Origin: Alloprevotella sp. OH1205_COT-284
GTDB taxonomy: Bacteria > Bacteroidota > Bacteroidia > Bacteroidales > Bacteroidaceae
Length of the DNA stretch: 33,839 bases
Assembly (NCBI RefSeq): GCF_003859795.1
Contig: NZ_RQYI01000034.1
Location: 1 to 33,839 of the forward strand
Direction: 5' to 3'
Shown here: positions 4,210 to 33,739 of the stretch, one piece after another
Position numbering within the stretch: the first letter of the stretch is position 1
Layout of the letters: each line of letters starts with the position of its first letter
Notes under the pieces: generated by a model
What the model was told of the DNA's origin: nothing
Database searches by the model: none
Seen by the model: the letters and a program-made list of their open reading frames with translations, nothing else
Program-made: the position numbers and the translations under genes

Positions 4210-4749
4210 TTATGCTTCTCGACAAACGGCTTCGAGTTCTTCGATCGAAGCAACCACCCGAAAACTTTCTTGCAATTCGTGGCCGATGAGTCCTTGCTGC
4301 GTCAAACCGTCGAGCGTTTCCAAGAGCGGTTTCCAACAATCGTCCACATTGTAGAGCAACACCCTCTTACTGTCTGTGCCGATAGCGTTTGCGGCCAGCA
4401 CGGTAAACATTTCGTCGAGTGTTCCGGTACCGCCGGGAAGCACGACAAAGATGTCGCTCTCTCGCATCAAAACGGCTTTGCGGTCGTGGAGATCCGTCGT
4501 GCGAAATTCGACATCGAGCAACGTACTCACGCGCTTTCGATCATAAAGGATTTGGGGCACTACGCCAAACACGCGCCCACCACTCTCCCTGACCGATCGT
4601 GCCAAAACCTCCATCAGTCCGCAGGAAGAACCTCCGTAAATCAATGTGCGACCTGTCGAACCGATCCAATGCCCCACAGCTTCGGCAGCAGCATGGAAAG
4701 AAGGAGAAATTTCGCTGCGCGAAGAAAGAAAAACTCCGATTTTCTGCAT
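4210..4749 (-). CDS. LOG-family protein (lysine decarboxylase-like fold, possible cytokinin riboside 5'-monophosphate phosphoribohydrolase)
   Basis: The 179-residue protein carries the LOG motifs: GGSSCGLM near residue 40 (usual GGxxxGLMG) and PGGTGTLDE around residues 102-110 (usual PGGxGTxxE). The family forms a Rossmann-like dimer that hydrolyses nucleoside 5'-monophosphates to base and ribose 5-phosphate; older annotations as lysine decarboxylase are misleading. The start at MQKIGVFLSS (4749) aligns with family N termini. An in-frame ATG at 4806 would add 19 residues and is also downstream of the promoter, so it is not excluded. The gene is first in a two-gene unit with the sulfatase; I see no biochemical link between them. 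Confidence 0.85.
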   Translation of the reverse strand: MQKIGVFLSSRSEISPSFHAAAEAVGHWIGSTGRTLIYGGSSCGLMEVLARSVRESGGRVFGVVPQILYDRKRVSTLLDVEFRTTDLHDRKAVLMRESDIFVVLPGGTGTLDEMFTVLAANAIGTDSKRVLLYNVDDCWKPLLETLDGLTQQGLIGHELQESFRVVASIEELEAVCREA

Positions 4750-4830
4750 ATCGTCAATATTTTTTCGAGGAGGCGAGTCTATTCCGACCTTCGGAAAAAC
4801 GCACACACATCGAAGGGGTTGAAATTACGG

Positions 4831-4862
4831 CAAAGGTACAAATATTTTTTCGACATCGCAAA
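4831..4862 (-). promoter_or_regulatory. Promoter of the LOG-sulfatase unit
   Basis: Read on the minus strand, TTTG (4862-4859), a 20-bp spacer and TACCTTTG (4838-4831) match the Bacteroidetes consensus. Confidence 0.7.
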
Positions 4863-5269
4863 GCAATCATGCACGTTCAAAAGCCATGAACTGCCGACAA
4901 ATTCGTGCTTTGCCCAAAAGCCGGCAGCATCGTTGCTCGCCAAGAAACACTTCTCAACCTTTTGTCCACCAAGGAACACACAAACTTATCGGCTCATTTT
5001 CAAGAAGAAACGAACACCAACACGCGGTCTGTTCGCACAAAAGAGAAAGGTGGGTTCTGCATCGCGAGTAGAATTCCCAAACAATGAGTAGAAAAACGGG
5101 GTAGGAAGTAAGAAGGACACGAGTCGGCGGCCGTATTTCGGTATTCCGATTTTCGGAAATTCGCCGATACGATCCGCACATCTGCGACGAGTATCGGAAC
5201 GACCTGCTTTTTTTCGGTGAAAACCTCAAAAAAACAAAGGGCAAATAGGTGTTTCGCTTTTTTTTCCGT
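4863..5269. other. Gene-free divergent region between the LOG and hpt genes
   Basis: About 400 bp with no convincing coding capacity. It holds weak GAGTAGAA repeats at 5066-5107 that resemble the 21-bp family seen elsewhere. A stem at 5164-5170/5191-5197 (CCGATAC/GTATCGG) follows, with a T7 run a few bases downstream. Confidence 0.6.
5164..5215 (+). terminator. Orphan terminator-like hairpin
   Basis: CCGATAC at 5164-5170 pairs with GTATCGG at 5191-5197, and a run of seven T follows about 10 bases later. No plus-strand gene ends upstream, so it is either a chance structure or the end of an unrecognised small RNA. Confidence 0.25.
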
Positions 5270-5277
5270 ATTTTTGC
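5270..5277 (+). promoter_or_regulatory. -7 element of the hpt promoter
   Basis: TATTTTTG matches the TAnnTTTG element and lies 20 bp before the chosen hpt ATG. I find no clear TTTG at the -33 position. Confidence 0.55.
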
Positions 5278-5297
5278 ATGCAAAACTTTTATTGACC

Positions 5298-5834
5298 ATG
5301 GAGATCGTTACCGTAAAAGATAAAAAATTTGCCATTTCCATCACGGCGGAGCAACTCCGCCAACGCATCGCCGAAATAGCGGCTCAAATCAGCAAAGACA
5401 TGGAGGGGAAAAAACCGCTGTTTCTTGCCGTGCTGAATGGTTCGTTCATGTATGCCGCCGATCTGATGCGCGGCATCACCACGCCTTGCGAAATATCTTT
5501 TGTGCGTTTTGCCAGTTATGAGGGCATGCACAGCACCGGATGCGTCAATGAGGTGCTCGGATTGGCCGAGGAGATCAAAGGGCGCAACGTCATCGTGGTG
5601 GAAGACATCATTGATTCAGGTCTGACGATGCAACTGCTCCTGTCGAAACTCCGCGAACACCAACCTGCCGACCTCAGAGTGGCCTCGCTACTGGTGAAGC
5701 CCGGCAACCTGAAAGTGGAACTCGACATTGCTTACACTTGTTTTGAAATCCCCAACGACTTCATCGTCGGCTACGGCTTGGACTACGACGGAGAAGGACG
5801 CAACCTGCCCGCCATCTACACCGTGATGGAATGA
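5298..5834 (+). CDS. hpt: Hypoxanthine phosphoribosyltransferase
   Basis: The enzyme salvages hypoxanthine (and usually guanine) with PRPP to give IMP or GMP. The 178-residue length is normal. The PRPP-binding motif is VVEDIIDSGLTM with E102, D103 and T110; the loop LNGSFMYAADL (about residues 48-58) and the late FIVGYGLDYDGEGRNLP segment are also family hallmarks. The ATG at 5298 is preferred: an in-frame ATG at 5217 lies upstream of the -7 element and would add a basic unrelated stretch. It is followed 147 bp later by adk, another purine nucleotide enzyme, an order common in Bacteroidales. Cytoplasmic. Confidence 0.95.
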   Translation: MEIVTVKDKKFAISITAEQLRQRIAEIAAQISKDMEGKKPLFLAVLNGSFMYAADLMRGITTPCEISFVRFASYEGMHSTGCVNEVLGLAEEIKGRNVIVVEDIIDSGLTMQLLLSKLREHQPADLRVASLLVKPGNLKVELDIAYTCFEIPNDFIVGYGLDYDGEGRNLPAIYTVME

Positions 5835-8683: not shown

Positions 8684-9868
8684 ATGCACAAAATCACAAC
8701 ACTCATCTGCCTGCTTCTGTTTTCCACCGTTCCCCTCATAGGACAAGATGTTATGGTGGTTCGCTCTCAAAAGGGCGAAAGCCGCGTGATGCGTGTGAGC
8801 GATCTTCTCGCAATCGAGTTCACCGACCACAAGCAGCAAAACGATCTCTTCGTGGGAACGGAGATAAATCCCTTGGCATCGGCATATTTGGGAACGGTGG
8901 TTTATTCGGACGACGACTATCGGAAATCGGAGATCGGACGTTTTCTGCCTCCCGAAGGCACACGAGGCGACCACCCGCTCCCCATTCGTCTGCATGCTCC
9001 GAAAGAGGCCGCCACGGCCGACAGGGTACGAGTTTTTTCCGCGGAAGGAGGATTCGAGCTTCCGCAATTGGCCAAAGTGGAACGGGGAGAGGCCGTCGTA
9101 CACCACCTTTTACCCAATCGCACCTACCGAGTGTTGTGGTTGGCAGAAAACAGTTTCGCACCTTTGGCCGAAAGTTCGATTTTCGCAACGGGCGAACTGC
9201 GCATGATCGGTTTGAAACGAGTGCTCAATGTGCGAGATTTCGGCGGCTGGCCGGCCATGGAAGGCCGTAGGGTCAGACATGGTTGGCTCTATCGCGGTGC
9301 ACAATTGCACAACCCTGCCGACGGCACTATTGCCACGGAAGCCGACGTGACAGAACTTCGACGACTGGGCATTCGAGCAGAACTCGATTTGCGCGGCAAT
9401 CAGGAGTCGGGCAAAATCACCGCTTCGCCTCTCGGCAACGACATTCGCTACTATCGCATCGCCGGTGGCGGCATCTACCCCTATGCCGAAATGATCACGC
9501 GTTTTCCGGAAGACATTAAAGAGGTCTTTCGAGAAGTACTCGACAATTTGCGACAAGGCCGACCGACCTACATTCATTGCGCACAAGGCGCGGATCGGAC
9601 GGGGACGATAGCCTTTCTCCTCAATGGTATTCTCGGAGTGTCGGAAAGCGATTTGGCCAAAGACTTCGAACTCACCTCTTTGTCGCCGGTGGGCATAAGA
9701 AGTAGAGTGTTCTATCCGGAACAAAAAGAAATCAACTATGCTGCCTTGGTGAGGGCTTTGGACAAATACAATGGGCAAACGCTATTGGAGCGTTTGGAAA
9801 ACTACTTTCTGTCGGTCGGCATCACACGTGCCGAAATCGAAGAATACCGACTGTTTATGCTTTATTGA
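8684..9868 (+). CDS. Exported tyrosine/dual-specificity protein phosphatase (CX5R)
   Basis: The 394-residue protein starts with a signal peptide (MHKITTLICLLLFSTVPLIG, cleavage probably before QD), so it acts outside the cytoplasm. Residues 25-170 are a Bacteroidales-type N-terminal region of unknown role, probably beta-rich. The catalytic domain begins near RVLNVRDFGGWPAMEGRRV (about 187-205), which matches the start of the Y_phosphatase3 family. The active-site loop is HC299-AQGADR305-TG, with the nucleophilic cysteine and the arginine both present. Related enzymes hydrolyse phosphotyrosine, other phosphoprotein residues or phosphoinositides. It lies 15 bp before the CotH lipoprotein gene, which suggests joint expression and perhaps opposing activities. 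The substrate is unknown. Confidence 0.88.
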   Translation: MHKITTLICLLLFSTVPLIGQDVMVVRSQKGESRVMRVSDLLAIEFTDHKQQNDLFVGTEINPLASAYLGTVVYSDDDYRKSEIGRFLPPEGTRGDHPLPIRLHAPKEAATADRVRVFSAEGGFELPQLAKVERGEAVVHHLLPNRTYRVLWLAENSFAPLAESSIFATGELRMIGLKRVLNVRDFGGWPAMEGRRVRHGWLYRGAQLHNPADGTIATEADVTELRRLGIRAELDLRGNQESGKITASPLGNDIRYYRIAGGGIYPYAEMITRFPEDIKEVFREVLDNLRQGRPTYIHCAQGADRTGTIAFLLNGILGVSESDLAKDFELTSLSPVGIRSRVFYPEQKEINYAALVRALDKYNGQTLLERLENYFLSVGITRAEIEEYRLFMLY

Positions 9869-9883
9869 TCTACACACTACGCC

Positions 9884-12556
9884 ATGTCATTTTTCTCTCG
9901 AAAATCAAACGCCCGTTGGCTGCTATCTTCCTTTTTTTTATTGTTCTCCGTGTTGGCAGGAGGTTGCCTCGCGGGGTGTACCGATCTCACCGACATCGAA
10001 GCCCGACTGACCCAATTGGAAGAAAGCGTAAGCAACTTGGAAAAAGCCGAAGAGGCTTTACGAAAGGCGTATGCAGACGGAAAGATCATCAAAAGTGTCA
10101 CTCCTTTTGCCGCCACCGCCGAAGAAGAGAGTGGCTTTGTTGTGACTTTTTCGGACAACAGTTCGCTAACGCTCCACAATGGTGCCAAAGGAGAAAAAGG
10201 AGATAAAGGAAATCAGGGAGAAAAAGGAGAGCAAGGCGAAAAGGGCGAAAAGGGCGAAAAGGGCGAACAAGGCCTGCAAGGAGAACACGGCACAAACGGA
10301 AAAGACGGCACCACACCTTTCATCAAAATCGACGGGAATGGTTATTGGGTCGTTTCGTATGATAGCGGTCTGACTTGGACGCGCCTGATGAACGACGCGG
10401 GAGCATACTTGACGGCCAAAGGAGAGAAAGGAGAGAAAGGCGAAAAAGGAGAGAAAGGAGATAAAGGAGAAAAGGGAGAGCAAGGAAACAAAGGAGAGAA
10501 GGGAGAGAAGGGCGAACAAGGCCTGCAAGGAGAACACGGCACAAATGGGATCGGTATGAAAGTGATCGTGGATGCAGAAGGGCATTACGCCTTTGTCACC
10601 TACGACATGGGAAAACCCGACACCATAATCGACACCATAAAAACGCCCTATCCGGCACAACCCGAACACTTGATACAACACATCAGCGAAGATGAAACGA
10701 CACACAGCATCACGCTGACATTGAGCAACGGACGTTCATTCCAGTTCGACAAATTCGCGATTACCCCCACATCTGTCGTCCTACTGGAAACCTCCCCCTT
10801 GGTCGTCGGCATGAAATCAAAAGTGACGGTGGAATTTCGTGTCAATCCCTCCAATGCCACGTTCAACCACGACACGGCTTCGCCGGAATGCCAGATATAT
10901 TTGGACAAAGTGGGCGCGACACGTGCCCCCGGCTACATCAATCCTCCGCACAATTATCGTTTAGAGGCCGTAGAAACCGTTTCCGACGAACAGGGCGTTC
11001 AACAAGAAGGACAATATCGCGCCACGATAGCCGATCTCGGACTTTCACTTCCCTATCGCGAAAGAGCCGCACTCGTGCTCAACGTGAAGGACGGACACGG
11101 CAATGCCGTTCAAATCTCATCACAAGCCTTTGAGATAAAACGCGCCGGCGACGAGCTGGTGGAATTCTTTTTCACACAAAAAAACAATCCGACCCTTCTT
11201 AAAGACGAAAAAGCACACATCGCCGATGGAGAGATCTCTTTATCGATTCCTTATCTGAAAGATTTTTCAAAACTCATTGCATCGTTTCAGACAAACGCGC
11301 GCGTCTTCGTGGGAGAAACGGAACAAGTGAGCGGAGTGACGGCAAACGACTTTTCAAAGCCGGTGGTTTACCGCATCGTCGATGCGCAAAACAACGAAAA
11401 GACCTACACGGTGAAAATATCCGACACCGGACTGCCCGTCGTGCGCATCACCACTCCGTCGCTCATCACATCGAAAGAAAACTGGACGGCAGGATGCACC
11501 CTTACCATTGAAGACGAAAAAGGCGTGACGAACTATGGCGCGATAGAGATGCGGGGGCGAGGCAACTCGACATGGACTTACCCCAAAAAGCCCTATGCCC
11601 TGCGGCTTTCGCAACGCTCCGAGGTGTTGGGAATGCCCAAACACAAACGCTGGGTGCTGTTGGCCAACTGGAAAGACCGCACACTCTTGCGAAACGATAT
11701 TTGTTTTGCCATTGCACGAAAAACCGACTTGAAGTGGACACCTTCCGGACAGTTCGTGGAAGTCGTGATGAATCGGCAACACATCGGCAACTACTACTTA
11801 TGCGAACAAATACGGATCGACAAAAACAGGGTGAACATTCCCGAAATGACTGCCACTGACGAAGACGAAACAAGCATTTCGGGAGGATATTTGCTGGAAT
11901 TCGATACGAACTTCGACGAAAAAAACAAGTTCAAAACAATCAAAAGAGATTTGCCCTGCAACATCAAATCTCCCGACGACGATGTCATCACCCCCAAACA
12001 AACAGAATACATCAAAAACTACGTCAACACGTTTGAAACCCTCCTCTATAAAAACAACGGTCTGTCCTCAAAAGAATATCTCGACTACTTCGACCTCGAT
12101 GCGGCCATCGACTATTGGCTCATCAATGAGGTGTCGGGTTCGAGCGAAAGCTATTGGCCGAAAAGCGTGTATGCCCACAAAGATCGAGGCGGAAAACTGA
12201 CCATGGGCCCCGTGTGGGATTTTGATTGGGGAACGTTTCTCCCCTCCAACTCCCACAGCTGGGTGGCCACTCAGGGTATGTGGCAAAAGCGATTGCTCAG
12301 CAGCCACTCCGTGTTGTTACGCATCAAGGAGCGATGGCAAAAATGGAAACCGGCTTTTAAGGAAATTCCGGCCTACATAGAAGCGCAGCGCGAGAAACTA
12401 CGTGCCTCCAATGCCAAAAACATTGAGATTTGGCCGATTTATACACGCGACAACGGCGATGAAGTTCTCGACTATGACAAAGCCGTGGATCGCATGATTG
12501 AGGCTTATCTCGAAAAAATAGAGTGGCTCGACCGGGAATTTACCAAGATCAAATAA
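9884..12556 (+). CDS. Surface lipoprotein with collagen-like repeats and CotH kinase-like domain
   Basis: The 890-residue product has a signal sequence ending in a lipobox, LAGC, with C32 as the likely acylated residue. A short coiled coil (residues 35-62) follows, then a DUF4988-like segment. Two collagen-like Gly-X-Y blocks (100-142 and 180-222), mostly GEK and GEQ triplets, flank a TTPFIKIDGNGYWVVSYD module. Residues 270-520 form beta-rich, probably Ig-like domains. The C-terminal CotH domain (about 525-870) shows EMRGRGNSTW (555-564), KKPYAL, LANWKDRTLLRND and GPVWDFDWG (775-783). Bacillus spore-coat CotH is an atypical protein kinase; the R.RGNSTW and WDFD signatures correspond to its active-site regions. 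Likely anchored in the outer membrane. It directly follows the exported phosphatase. Kinase activity and target are inferred only. Confidence 0.88.
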   Translation: MSFFSRKSNARWLLSSFFLLFSVLAGGCLAGCTDLTDIEARLTQLEESVSNLEKAEEALRKAYADGKIIKSVTPFAATAEEESGFVVTFSDNSSLTLHNGAKGEKGDKGNQGEKGEQGEKGEKGEKGEQGLQGEHGTNGKDGTTPFIKIDGNGYWVVSYDSGLTWTRLMNDAGAYLTAKGEKGEKGEKGEKGDKGEKGEQGNKGEKGEKGEQGLQGEHGTNGIGMKVIVDAEGHYAFVTYDMGKPDTIIDTIKTPYPAQPEHLIQHISEDETTHSITLTLSNGRSFQFDKFAITPTSVVLLETSPLVVGMKSKVTVEFRVNPSNATFNHDTASPECQIYLDKVGATRAPGYINPPHNYRLEAVETVSDEQGVQQEGQYRATIADLGLSLPYRERAALVLNVKDGHGNAVQISSQAFEIKRAGDELVEFFFTQKNNPTLLKDEKAHIADGEISLSIPYLKDFSKLIASFQTNARVFVGETEQVSGVTANDFSKPVVYRIVDAQNNEKTYTVKISDTGLPVVRITTPSLITSKENWTAGCTLTIEDEKGVTNYGAIEMRGRGNSTWTYPKKPYALRLSQRSEVLGMPKHKRWVLLANWKDRTLLRNDICFAIARKTDLKWTPSGQFVEVVMNRQHIGNYYLCEQIRIDKNRVNIPEMTATDEDETSISGGYLLEFDTNFDEKNKFKTIKRDLPCNIKSPDDDVITPKQTEYIKNYVNTFETLLYKNNGLSSKEYLDYFDLDAAIDYWLINEVSGSSESYWPKSVYAHKDRGGKLTMGPVWDFDWGTFLPSNSHSWVATQGMWQKRLLSSHSVLLRIKERWQKWKPAFKEIPAYIEAQREKLRASNAKNIEIWPIYTRDNGDEVLDYDKAVDRMIEAYLEKIEWLDREFTKIK
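10181..10549 (+). repeat. Two collagen-like Gly-X-Y coding blocks sharing a 36-bp exact repeat
   Basis: Blocks at 10181-10309 and 10421-10549 each encode 43 residues with glycine at every third position. Both end GEQGLQGEHGTNG. A 36-bp stretch (10261-10296 and 10510-10545) is identical at a spacing of 249 bp, that is 83 codons, indicating a duplicated module. The tracts are almost pure purine on the plus strand. Confidence 0.9.
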
Positions 12557-12685
12557 ATTCCGCGCATCATGGGGAGATTTCCCCAGATTTCGGCATCGGA
12601 AAATCGGTGTCGTCCGACACCAACCGGACTGACGAAAAGCACGCCGCTCCGCAAATCGGGCAAGACTACCTTGGAGATAGGAAAT
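12557..12685. other. Spacer after the CotH gene
   Basis: Small palindromes are present (GGGGAGATTTCCCC at 12571-12584; GGTGTCG/CGACACC at 12606-12621). None has a T run, so I cannot name a terminator for the obgE-CotH series. Confidence 0.5.
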
Positions 12686-12790
12686 TCTACCTCAAAGGCA
12701 AGGAATTCTACCTCAAAGGCAAGGAAATCTACCTCAAAGGCAAGGAAATCTACCTCAAAGGCAAGGAAATCTACCTCAAAGGCAAGGAAA
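12686..12790 (+). repeat. Five-copy 21-bp tandem repeat
   Basis: Five consecutive 21-bp units begin TCTACCTCAAAGGCAAGG and differ only at the last few bases (first unit ends AAT, the others AAA). Because 21 is a multiple of three, the array is open in several frames (for example FYLKGKE repeats), but no homologous protein is evident. It has the same period and a related TCTACCT...AGG core as the array at 33593. Confidence 0.95.
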
Positions 12791-12826
12791 CCTCCCGACA
12801 AAACGAGAATATCCCTCGCACGCGTA

Positions 12827-13203
12827 CGCGCGCGTTCCTAAATTTTATCACATTTAGCCTTCACTGCCTCCGCAAAACGAGTTAGTCCACTGAATATCAA
12901 CACGATATTAGCGAAGGCAAAGTGAAGGTAAAATAAAAACGACAAACGCAATCAACTGTCAATCAACCTATTGTTTCCTGTTTTTGCTTTCACAACCGCG
13001 AAAAGAGCAGTGTTTCGCGCCGAAACGGTGAAAGCAAGTGAAAGCAAAAGGAGAAGTTTGCCTTCACCTCAGTGATACTGATTTTCAGCCGATTGCATTT
13101 TACCGGTGAAGTTTGCCTTCACTTTACCTTCGCAAGAAACAAACTGATAATCAGAAGAAAAAACGTTTTAGCGGAAGCAAAACGGCAAAAACAAAAAAAT
13201 AGG
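12827..13203 (+). repeat. Foldback dispersed element, copy A (377 bp)
   Basis: This gene-free element starts with CGCGCGCGTT and ends with a purine-rich tract. Its reverse complement matches the element at 25478-25850 at both ends, including a 23-nt exact match (13177-13199 with 25482-25504), and in the middle. Internally, 12911-12932 (GCGAAGGCAAAGTGAAGG...) is a 20-of-22 inverted repeat of 13112-13133, so the element can fold back. No transposase is encoded. It is best described as a MITE-like or palindromic intergenic repeat. Confidence 0.7.
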
Positions 13204-13456
13204 GTAAGGAAACACCCGAAAAGGCGGTTTCACCGAAGATGTCACGGAGATGGAGGGCGAAGCCAAACGTCAGAACAATCAAAGAGAAGCAACGGCTTCA
13301 AAGAGATGCCGATTTTGAGCGGCATGGCGCGAAGGATTTGACAGACACGTAGCAGACACCGATAAAATCGAAACGACGATGCTCAAAAGAAGATCATCTT
13401 CCTTCTCTCAAACGTGGTTTTTACTCATAAGACCAAAGTATTCCAATAAGTTTTTG
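13204..13456. other. Gene-free spacer before proS
   Basis: No convincing gene, repeat or RNA structure is visible here. The short open frames lack family resemblance. Confidence 0.5.
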
Positions 13457-13464
13457 TAATTTTG
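13457..13464 (+). promoter_or_regulatory. -7 element of the proS promoter
   Basis: TAATTTTG matches the -7 consensus and predicts a leader of about 70 bases before the ATG at 13543. No clear -33 TTTG is seen. Confidence 0.5.
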
Positions 13465-13542
13465 TCCGCAAATTGTCGCCTTCTGCGCGACTGCACGTTT
13501 CCTATTTGCAGGATATAAGCAAAAAAAGAAGAAAAACAGATA

Positions 13543-33592: not shown

Positions 33593-33739
33593 CTGCCTAA
33601 GAAGCAGGAAATTCTAACTAACGAGTAGAAAATTCTAACTAACGAGTAGAAAATTCTAACTAACGAGTAGAAAATTCTAACTAACGAGTAGAAAACTCTA
33701 CCTAAGAGGTAGAAACTCCTAACTAACGAGTAGGAAATC
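33593..33739 (+). repeat. Seven-copy 21-bp tandem array
   Basis: Seven units of exactly 21 bp run from 33593 to 33739. Units 2-4 are identical (CTAACTAACGAGTAGAAAA plus TT); units 1, 5, 6 and 7 vary. Unit 6 contains a perfect 8-bp palindrome (TTCTACCT/AGGTAGAA with AAG between, starting in unit 5); units 2-5 form TTCT-ACT/AGT-AGAA hairpins with one bulged A. There are no non-repetitive spacers, so this is not a CRISPR. It lies between the PBP terminator and a probable insertion-sequence end. Confidence 0.95.

Follow-up and report, generated by a model that had tools for sequence, protein, structure and literature searches.

To our knowledge, bacteria have hardly been documented to phosphorylate proteins reversibly outside the cytoplasm. 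The spore-coat kinase CotH of Bacillus is described, in the accessible part of one source, as retaining residues that match D166, N171 and D184 of the protein kinase PKA (PMC12189002), and excerpts of another report that the D228Q and D251A versions of B. subtilis CotH are both inactive, so that both residues are needed (PMC7821199). CotH domains also occur in cellulosomes, where Cthe_0239 is given the architecture LTD, LTD, Fn3, CotH in the available portion of its description (PMC6083626), resembling the lamin-tail (LTD) CotH proteins discussed below; the role of the cellulosomal forms is called unclear, structural or regulatory, in the part of a further account at hand (PMC12484212). Here we analyze a 33,839-nucleotide stretch of Alloprevotella sp. 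OH1205_COT-284 (contig NZ_RQYI01000034.1; the whole stretch is referred to as the window), in which the gene for a predicted exported phosphatase of the CX5R type is immediately followed by the gene for a CotH-domain lipoprotein. The phosphatase tree has three distinct branches in which genes of these two families adjoin each other; one of the branches is a recurrent module that has survived rearrangement. The products of such pairs may act together on phosphate groups outside the cytoplasm.

PF13350 and CotH genes as neighbors

The phosphatase gene of the window (8684..9868, + strand), identified from its open reading frame (ORF) and by Pfam, encodes 394 amino acids and belongs to the PF13350 family, with a score of 105.9 bits against a gathering cut-off of 22.2. 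Sequence and alignment locate its P-loop, HCAQGADRTG, at residues 298-307 (9575..9604, + strand), where H298, C299, G302, D304, R305 and G307 are invariant in nine aligned sequences; the catalytic C299 and R305 of the CX5R signature are thus kept in all nine, and a DLR motif and an N-R-D-x-G-G motif are likewise invariant. The N-terminus, MHKITTLICLLLFSTVPLIGQ, resembles a signal peptide when judged by eye and by its hydropathy pattern rather than by a trained predictor, and this pattern suggests that the protein is exported.

The stop codon of the phosphatase at 9868 and the ATG of the lipoprotein at 9884 are separated by 15 bp on the same strand. The lipoprotein gene (9884..12556, + strand; ORF and Pfam) encodes 890 amino acids, and all the features that follow lie on the + strand. 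A lipobox, LAGC (residues 29-32; 9968..9979), called by eye and by the lipobox pattern and not by a trained predictor, precedes a DUF4988 match (residues 35-191; 9986..10456; 58.6 bits in Pfam), which overlaps collagen-like Gly-X-Y blocks. Two such blocks, at 10187..10272 and 10418..10521, were recovered by Pfam and by a repeat search, the collagen repeat match in Pfam reaching 56.8 bits. The CotH domain (PF08757; residues 557-875; 11552..12508) scores 110.1 bits against a gathering score of 23.8, which places it in that sequence family, and the motifs EMRGRGNSTW and GPVWDFDWG are both found in the protein. In all these respects ORFs, Pfam matches and patterns agree with the original prediction, made from the sequence alone, of an exported phosphatase with C299 and R305 followed by a lipoprotein with CotH signatures and collagen-like blocks. 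The named closest relatives of the lipoprotein come from Bacteroidota, chiefly Bacteroidales of animal guts, which makes the lineage presumed in the original prediction plausible. The genome itself (2.3 Mb, 95.55% complete) contains one PF13350 match and two CotH matches, and no fusion of phosphatase and CotH into a single protein was found among the ORFs of the loci checked.

Adjacency was surveyed in wide flanks taken around the PF13350 matches of a 151-genome family sample and of order- and genus-level searches with the window protein. The family set excludes a fragment match of 117 bases at the end of a contig (G083), 15 profile-search rows with flanks of only 1.5 kb were not counted, and because contig ends truncate some of the loci, misses are possible. 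CotH is the next gene within 500 bp for 12 of the 125 PF13350 ORFs thus collected (118 loci, window included), and lies 1.7-7.9 kb away for another eight. The 12 adjacent pairs were obtained with a second CotH model, the first having given eight and missed the CotH genes beside giant phosphatases; they comprise seven short phosphatases with a lamin-tail CotH, four giant phosphatases with a CotH, and the window pair. In a tree of 121 domains, from which short or identical ones among the 125 ORFs had been dropped, the paired phosphatases form three separate branches within one 75-row clade, the placement of the window protein in this clade being weakly supported (90/73, on a long branch). Export signals were examined in these 12 pairs only, and a strong hydrophobic N-terminus is seen in all the phosphatases except that of L068, where it is low from the Met chosen. 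Assuming one gene per 1200 bp and random placement, about 0.47 adjacencies are expected by chance among the 109 PF13350 matches of the family sample, and 10 were observed: five with lamin-tail CotH, four with giant phosphatases, and the window.

The short phosphatases with the P-loop signature HC[AG]xGCDR[CT]G constitute, together with their lamin-tail CotH partners, a module present in seven genomes from six genera and two families. Its two genes are codirectional in three loci (L064, L065, L220) and convergent in the other four (L066, L067, L068, L212). Identity to the L064 copy is 45-60% for the module phosphatases, and the module CotH proteins show 47-53%. Pfam confirms the LTD matches in L064 and L220; that of L212, whose CotH is cut by a contig end, falls below the cut-off, and the remaining CotH proteins were assigned to the lamin-tail group by alignment. 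No flanking ORF is common to any two of the seven loci (E 1e-8; 1 to 12 flanking ORFs each, of at least 90 amino acids from the first Met, with L066 and L212 being short contigs). The five paired lamin-tail CotH proteins of the family sample are exactly those matching above 1300 bits, the next seven matches reaching at most 244 bits; the order level adds one further strong match (G474), also paired, and at the genus level the lamin-tail CotH genes of G569 and G082 are paired. Nine loci from the other 41 listed lamin-tail-like matches of the order (at most 335 bits) contained no phosphatase, five of them having been re-examined with wider flanks. The window pair lies outside this module: its phosphatase does not fall in the HC[AG]xGCDR[CT]G clade, and its CotH protein carries DUF4988 and collagen-like repeats with no LTD match. 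In L065 a second PF13350 gene, of another subfamily (4648-5772, with HCLEGKDRTG), lies on the upstream side of the paired phosphatase and 1.7 kb away from the lamin-tail CotH.

The giant pairs (L290, L293, L295, L296) all belong to one genus and consist of divergently transcribed genes for phosphatases of 1177-1179 amino acids and CotH proteins of 1085-1087 amino acids; PF13350 was the only Pfam match in the 1179-residue protein of L293. PF13350 proteins of 1043-2246 amino acids, many with an HC[VAI]WGADRTG P-loop, are common in relatives of the family, and four of them adjoin CotH. Five same-genus genomes (L215-L219) encode a PF13350 protein of 455-488 amino acids beside a gene that looks RuvA-like by eye, with no CotH in the locus.

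The PDB sequence matches of the window phosphatase are weak, namely 8dhi at 2.6e-8 and 1ywf, which we take to be PtpB of a Mycobacterium species, at 0.0006. In PtpB-like enzymes, phosphoinositide use is associated with a Lys that immediately precedes the Asp of the P-loop. The residue at this position is Lys in 36 and Glu in one of the 46 phosphatase rows outside the 75-row clade (nine did not match the pattern), and within the clade it is Ala in 59 rows, Cys in 11 and Arg in two (three unmatched). Because the Lys tied to phosphoinositide use is replaced there, members of this clade may prefer other substrates. A phage origin of the window phosphatase was considered and rejected: seven phage records match it, all at below 60% identity and none covering 80% of the query.

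The CotH active site

A single PDB sequence, that of spore coat protein H (5jd9/5jda; E 7.8e-10), is matched by the CotH profile. In this alignment, as in the domain alignment, Glu755 of the window protein (12146..12148, + strand) stands opposite the NFDG Asp, at the catalytic Asp position of Bacillus CotH, and Asp779 of its WDFD motif (12218..12220, + strand), the predicted metal-binding Asp, stands opposite the PWDYD Asp. The spacing of 23 between the two counterparts in 5jd9/5jda fits D228 and D251 of B. subtilis, the numbering resting on our own count and not on a published alignment. The places of PKA D166, N171 and D184 are occupied in the window CotH by Glu, Ser and Asp.

To place this exchange we compared 80 window-like domains, window included, a set that is biased since most were chosen by likeness to the window and from which one split ORF (L124) was dropped. 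The catalytic position is Glu in 74 of them and Asp in six; it is Asp in 33 of 34 other CotH domains, the exception being L002, the other of the two CotH matches in the genome of the window, and in all seven lamin-tail CotH proteins. The metal-binding Asp (D251 equivalent) is present in all 80 window-like domains, the two Lys of PKKPY in 80 and 78, and the Glu of LCEQI in 80, and a near-invariant Asn two places before the catalytic-position Glu is Ser753 in the window protein. A quick tree of 128 CotH domains has two changes at the catalytic position, which are most simply explained as one Asp-to-Glu change and one return in an eight-row subclade (seven Asp) with an insertion there. From their invariance we infer which Lys (Lys568 or Lys569) and Glu (Glu641) would bind adenosine triphosphate (ATP). 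The window CotH would thus look like a domain with nucleotide and metal residues in place and its catalytic base exchanged, and its activity is not readable from the sequence. Ordinary CotH kinase activity is not to be assumed for it, because Glu takes the place of the catalytic Asp and Ser that of the Asn171 counterpart, and its chemistry may differ from that of Bacillus CotH, because the catalytic Asp is mostly Glu throughout its clade. We think that the strongest case for a phosphorylation cycle outside the cytoplasm comes from the lamin-tail module, and not from the window pair, because the module keeps the catalytic Asp and because its pairing has survived rearrangement.

The loci of the Glu-type clade (L084-L163, Bacteroidales) show varied neighbors, including SusD, the glycoside hydrolase (GH) families GH3, GH16 and GH30, and DUF6377, each recurrent neighbor family being found in at most 11 of the 80 loci. 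VTC or DUF4956 genes, considered as possible CotH neighbors, were not among the 10 recurrent ones scanned, the other neighbors lying outside that scan.

The site between pgeF and proS

The phosphatase gene begins 27 bp after the end of pgeF, a name kept from the first reading of the sequence without a family search. The gene order adk-obgE-pgeF-proS occurs in genomes of the same genus, and we compared 29 same-genus pgeF loci, drawn from 43 other genomes with a pgeF match, in flanks of 1.5 kb or less where contigs end. In six of them proS follows pgeF inside the examined flank, and the other 23 show different ORFs or contig ends. Five of the six gaps (L185, L186, L187, L188, L190) measure about 154-224 bp, with ends taken from tblastn; the sixth, in L182 (2263-3099), measures 837 bp and holds an opposite-strand ORF of 198 amino acids, GNAT acetyltransferase-like by eye and with no search made. 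As L182 represents another species, this ORF marks the gap between pgeF and proS as a variable site. Neither phosphatase nor CotH was detected in the flanks of the 29 loci with the first and second models. The suggestion that location in one tight gene series with pgeF hints at an envelope role must therefore be abandoned, since these loci have neither gene in the examined flanks and the six gaps to proS are near-empty or otherwise filled.

In the window pgeF and proS are separated by 4.9 kb, made up of the phosphatase and CotH genes and a stretch of about 1 kb between CotH and proS that has no assigned gene (12557..13542, no strand). This stretch contains a 21-bp tandem repeat found by the repeat search (12679..12790, + strand; 5.3 copies, 96% matches); a second 21-bp tandem array of different sequence is found at 33609-33738. 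A search for mobile-element ends around the pair gave only short, chance-like repeats besides the coding repeats and the 21-bp array. The most economical interpretation is a joint gain or loss of the phosphatase and CotH genes at this gap. The phosphatase has no close relative: six of 393 order-level genomes match it at E 1e-10 or better (itself included), the others at no more than 42% identity. Of 58 genomes in the genus, 11 match at E 0.001, again counting its own, with identity elsewhere no higher than 43%, a value that spans only 47 residues. Its best trimmed-column identity, to the protein of L071, is 46% over 201 columns.

Possible function and relation to known systems

As the leading reading we tentatively propose, while holding it somewhat short of probable, that the two genes act together on phosphate groups outside the cytoplasm, in opposed phosphorylation and dephosphorylation at the surface. 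The phosphatase and CotH genes would then form one functional unit. The collagen-like stalk of the lipoprotein would carry a CotH-fold phosphotransferase domain in an extracytoplasmic position, probably on the cell surface; this domain would most likely phosphorylate, or otherwise transfer phosphate to, hydroxyl residues of surface or extracellular proteins; and the exported CX5R phosphatase would remove phosphate from the groups that CotH phosphorylates. In this scheme we infer co-transcription, surface exposure, a shared substrate, the direction of the reactions and the phosphate donor, whereas the sequence itself shows the two domains, the export-signal patterns, the short spacing, the lack of the pair in the corresponding gap of relatives and the return of the pairing in other lineages. 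In favor of the scheme are the 15-bp spacing on one strand, the 4.9 kb between pgeF and proS against about 154-224 bp in five genomes of the genus, adjacencies beyond the chance expectation and spread over three phosphatase branches, the lamin-tail module, and the retention of the catalytic Cys, Arg and Asp in the phosphatase and of the Lys, Glu and metal Asp in CotH. A wider proposal, that Bacteroidales have repeatedly combined a CotH-fold enzyme with an exported CX5R phosphatase into a phosphorylation cycle outside the cytoplasm, with the window as an independent version based on the large Glu-for-Asp CotH clade, appears doubtful to us.

Several observations weigh against joint action. The window pair recurs in no other genome examined, and 105 of the 125 PF13350 ORFs have no CotH in their locus. 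One lamin-tail CotH (G581, 996 bits) has no visible phosphatase, its contig ending 91 bp upstream of the ORF, and the window phosphatase finds no match in that genome. Since relatedness makes the genomes non-independent, lineages were counted for the Poisson figure, and three lineages against 0.47 expected bring the chance down only to about 0.012; random placement is moreover a crude assumption, because surface-protein genes may cluster. In the active site, Glu755 replaces the catalytic Asp (D228) of active Bacillus-type CotH, and Ser761 stands where PKA has Asn171, a gap in the loop making the latter alignment uncertain. We know of no source of ATP outside the cytoplasm for such bacteria, and two separate insertions into the variable pgeF-proS gap are also conceivable. 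The original prediction therefore stands in part. One of its tests was whether related genomes conserve the pairing, and what recurs is PF13350 beside CotH in two other phosphatase branches, one of them a conserved module, but not the exact pair. The other was whether CotH has the residues needed to bind nucleotide and metal. Here the protein retains both Lys of PKKPY, the LCEQI Glu and the metal-binding Asp, with D228 and the Asn171 equivalent replaced. The idea that the two proteins add and remove phosphate gains from a recurrence broader than had been claimed, and loses from the isolation of the exact pair and the exchanged catalytic residue.

The same observations bear on other explanations. 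The window CotH might be a non-catalytic or phospho-ligand-binding scaffold, that is, a pseudokinase, with the phosphatase removing phosphate from dietary, host or microbial ligands kept close to the surface, so that phosphate or nutrients can be taken up. Such a role would fit the Glu at the catalytic position of 74 of the 80 window-like domains, which is compatible with one change on the quick tree, the genes for SusD or glycoside hydrolases that some loci of the clade have within 4.5 kb, as in nutrient capture, and the lack of an external ATP source known to us; however, Lys, Glu and metal Asp kept in all 80 exceed the needs of a mere scaffold and the CotH partners in the lamin-tail module retain Asp, and we consider this explanation somewhat unlikely. 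It is slightly less likely still, in our estimate, that two surface-protein genes landed at the variable pgeF-proS site, together or in turn, and share no function. The uniqueness of the exact pair speaks for this, as do the different ORF filling the gap in one species and the absence of a PF13350 gene from the examined flanks of all 80 loci nearest to the window CotH (64 of them with at least 1.5 kb on both sides), but the adjacency expected by chance is low, and both families are also paired in two further branches, in one of them despite rearrangement.

AMP (adenosine monophosphate) transfer and glutamylation occur in other kinase-fold enzymes, and a Glu-type CotH could perform a transfer of this sort, the phosphatase serving a neighboring step. 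The persistence of the Asp-to-Glu change through most of the clade, in a site otherwise unaltered, would be in keeping with it. Nevertheless, no direct evidence points this way, and the phosphatase family is known to act on phosphomonoesters, which an AMP or Glu adduct is not, making this the most improbable of the explanations.

For reversible phosphorylation outside the cytoplasm, a recurrent, rearrangement-surviving pair of a kinase-fold protein and a phosphatase supplies concrete candidates among gut Bacteroidales. The CotH clade with the Asp-to-Glu exchange, for its part, invites us to ask what function this widespread surface domain has. No publication on a CotH-phosphatase pair was present among the literature matches listed, a result that is no proof of absence as subscription papers are mostly uncovered.

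Among described systems, cellulosomal CotH (Clostridium thermocellum CseP, Cthe_0239) resembles the window protein in being an extracellular CotH outside the spore coat; unlike it, those proteins are parts of cellulosomes, and the portions of their descriptions at hand mention no phosphatase partner. The spore-coat kinase of Bacillus (PF08757; 5jd9/5jda) shares with the window CotH its Pfam family, the Lys, the Glu and the metal Asp, whereas the window protein has Glu for D228 and Ser for the Asn171 equivalent and is a lipoprotein with DUF4988 and a collagen-like stalk. Its neighbor is a phosphatase gene and not cotB and cotG. In the cotB-cotG-cotH module of B. subtilis, as far as the excerpted source goes (PMC7821199), the kinase gene is likewise clustered with partner genes, but the partners there are substrates and not a phosphatase. 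With the PF13350 phosphatases of 1ywf (PtpB) and 8dhi the window phosphatase has in common its family, a CX5R P-loop with Asp-Arg and the DLR motif, and it differs from them in the Ala before the P-loop Asp, an N-terminal extension, and a CotH neighbor.

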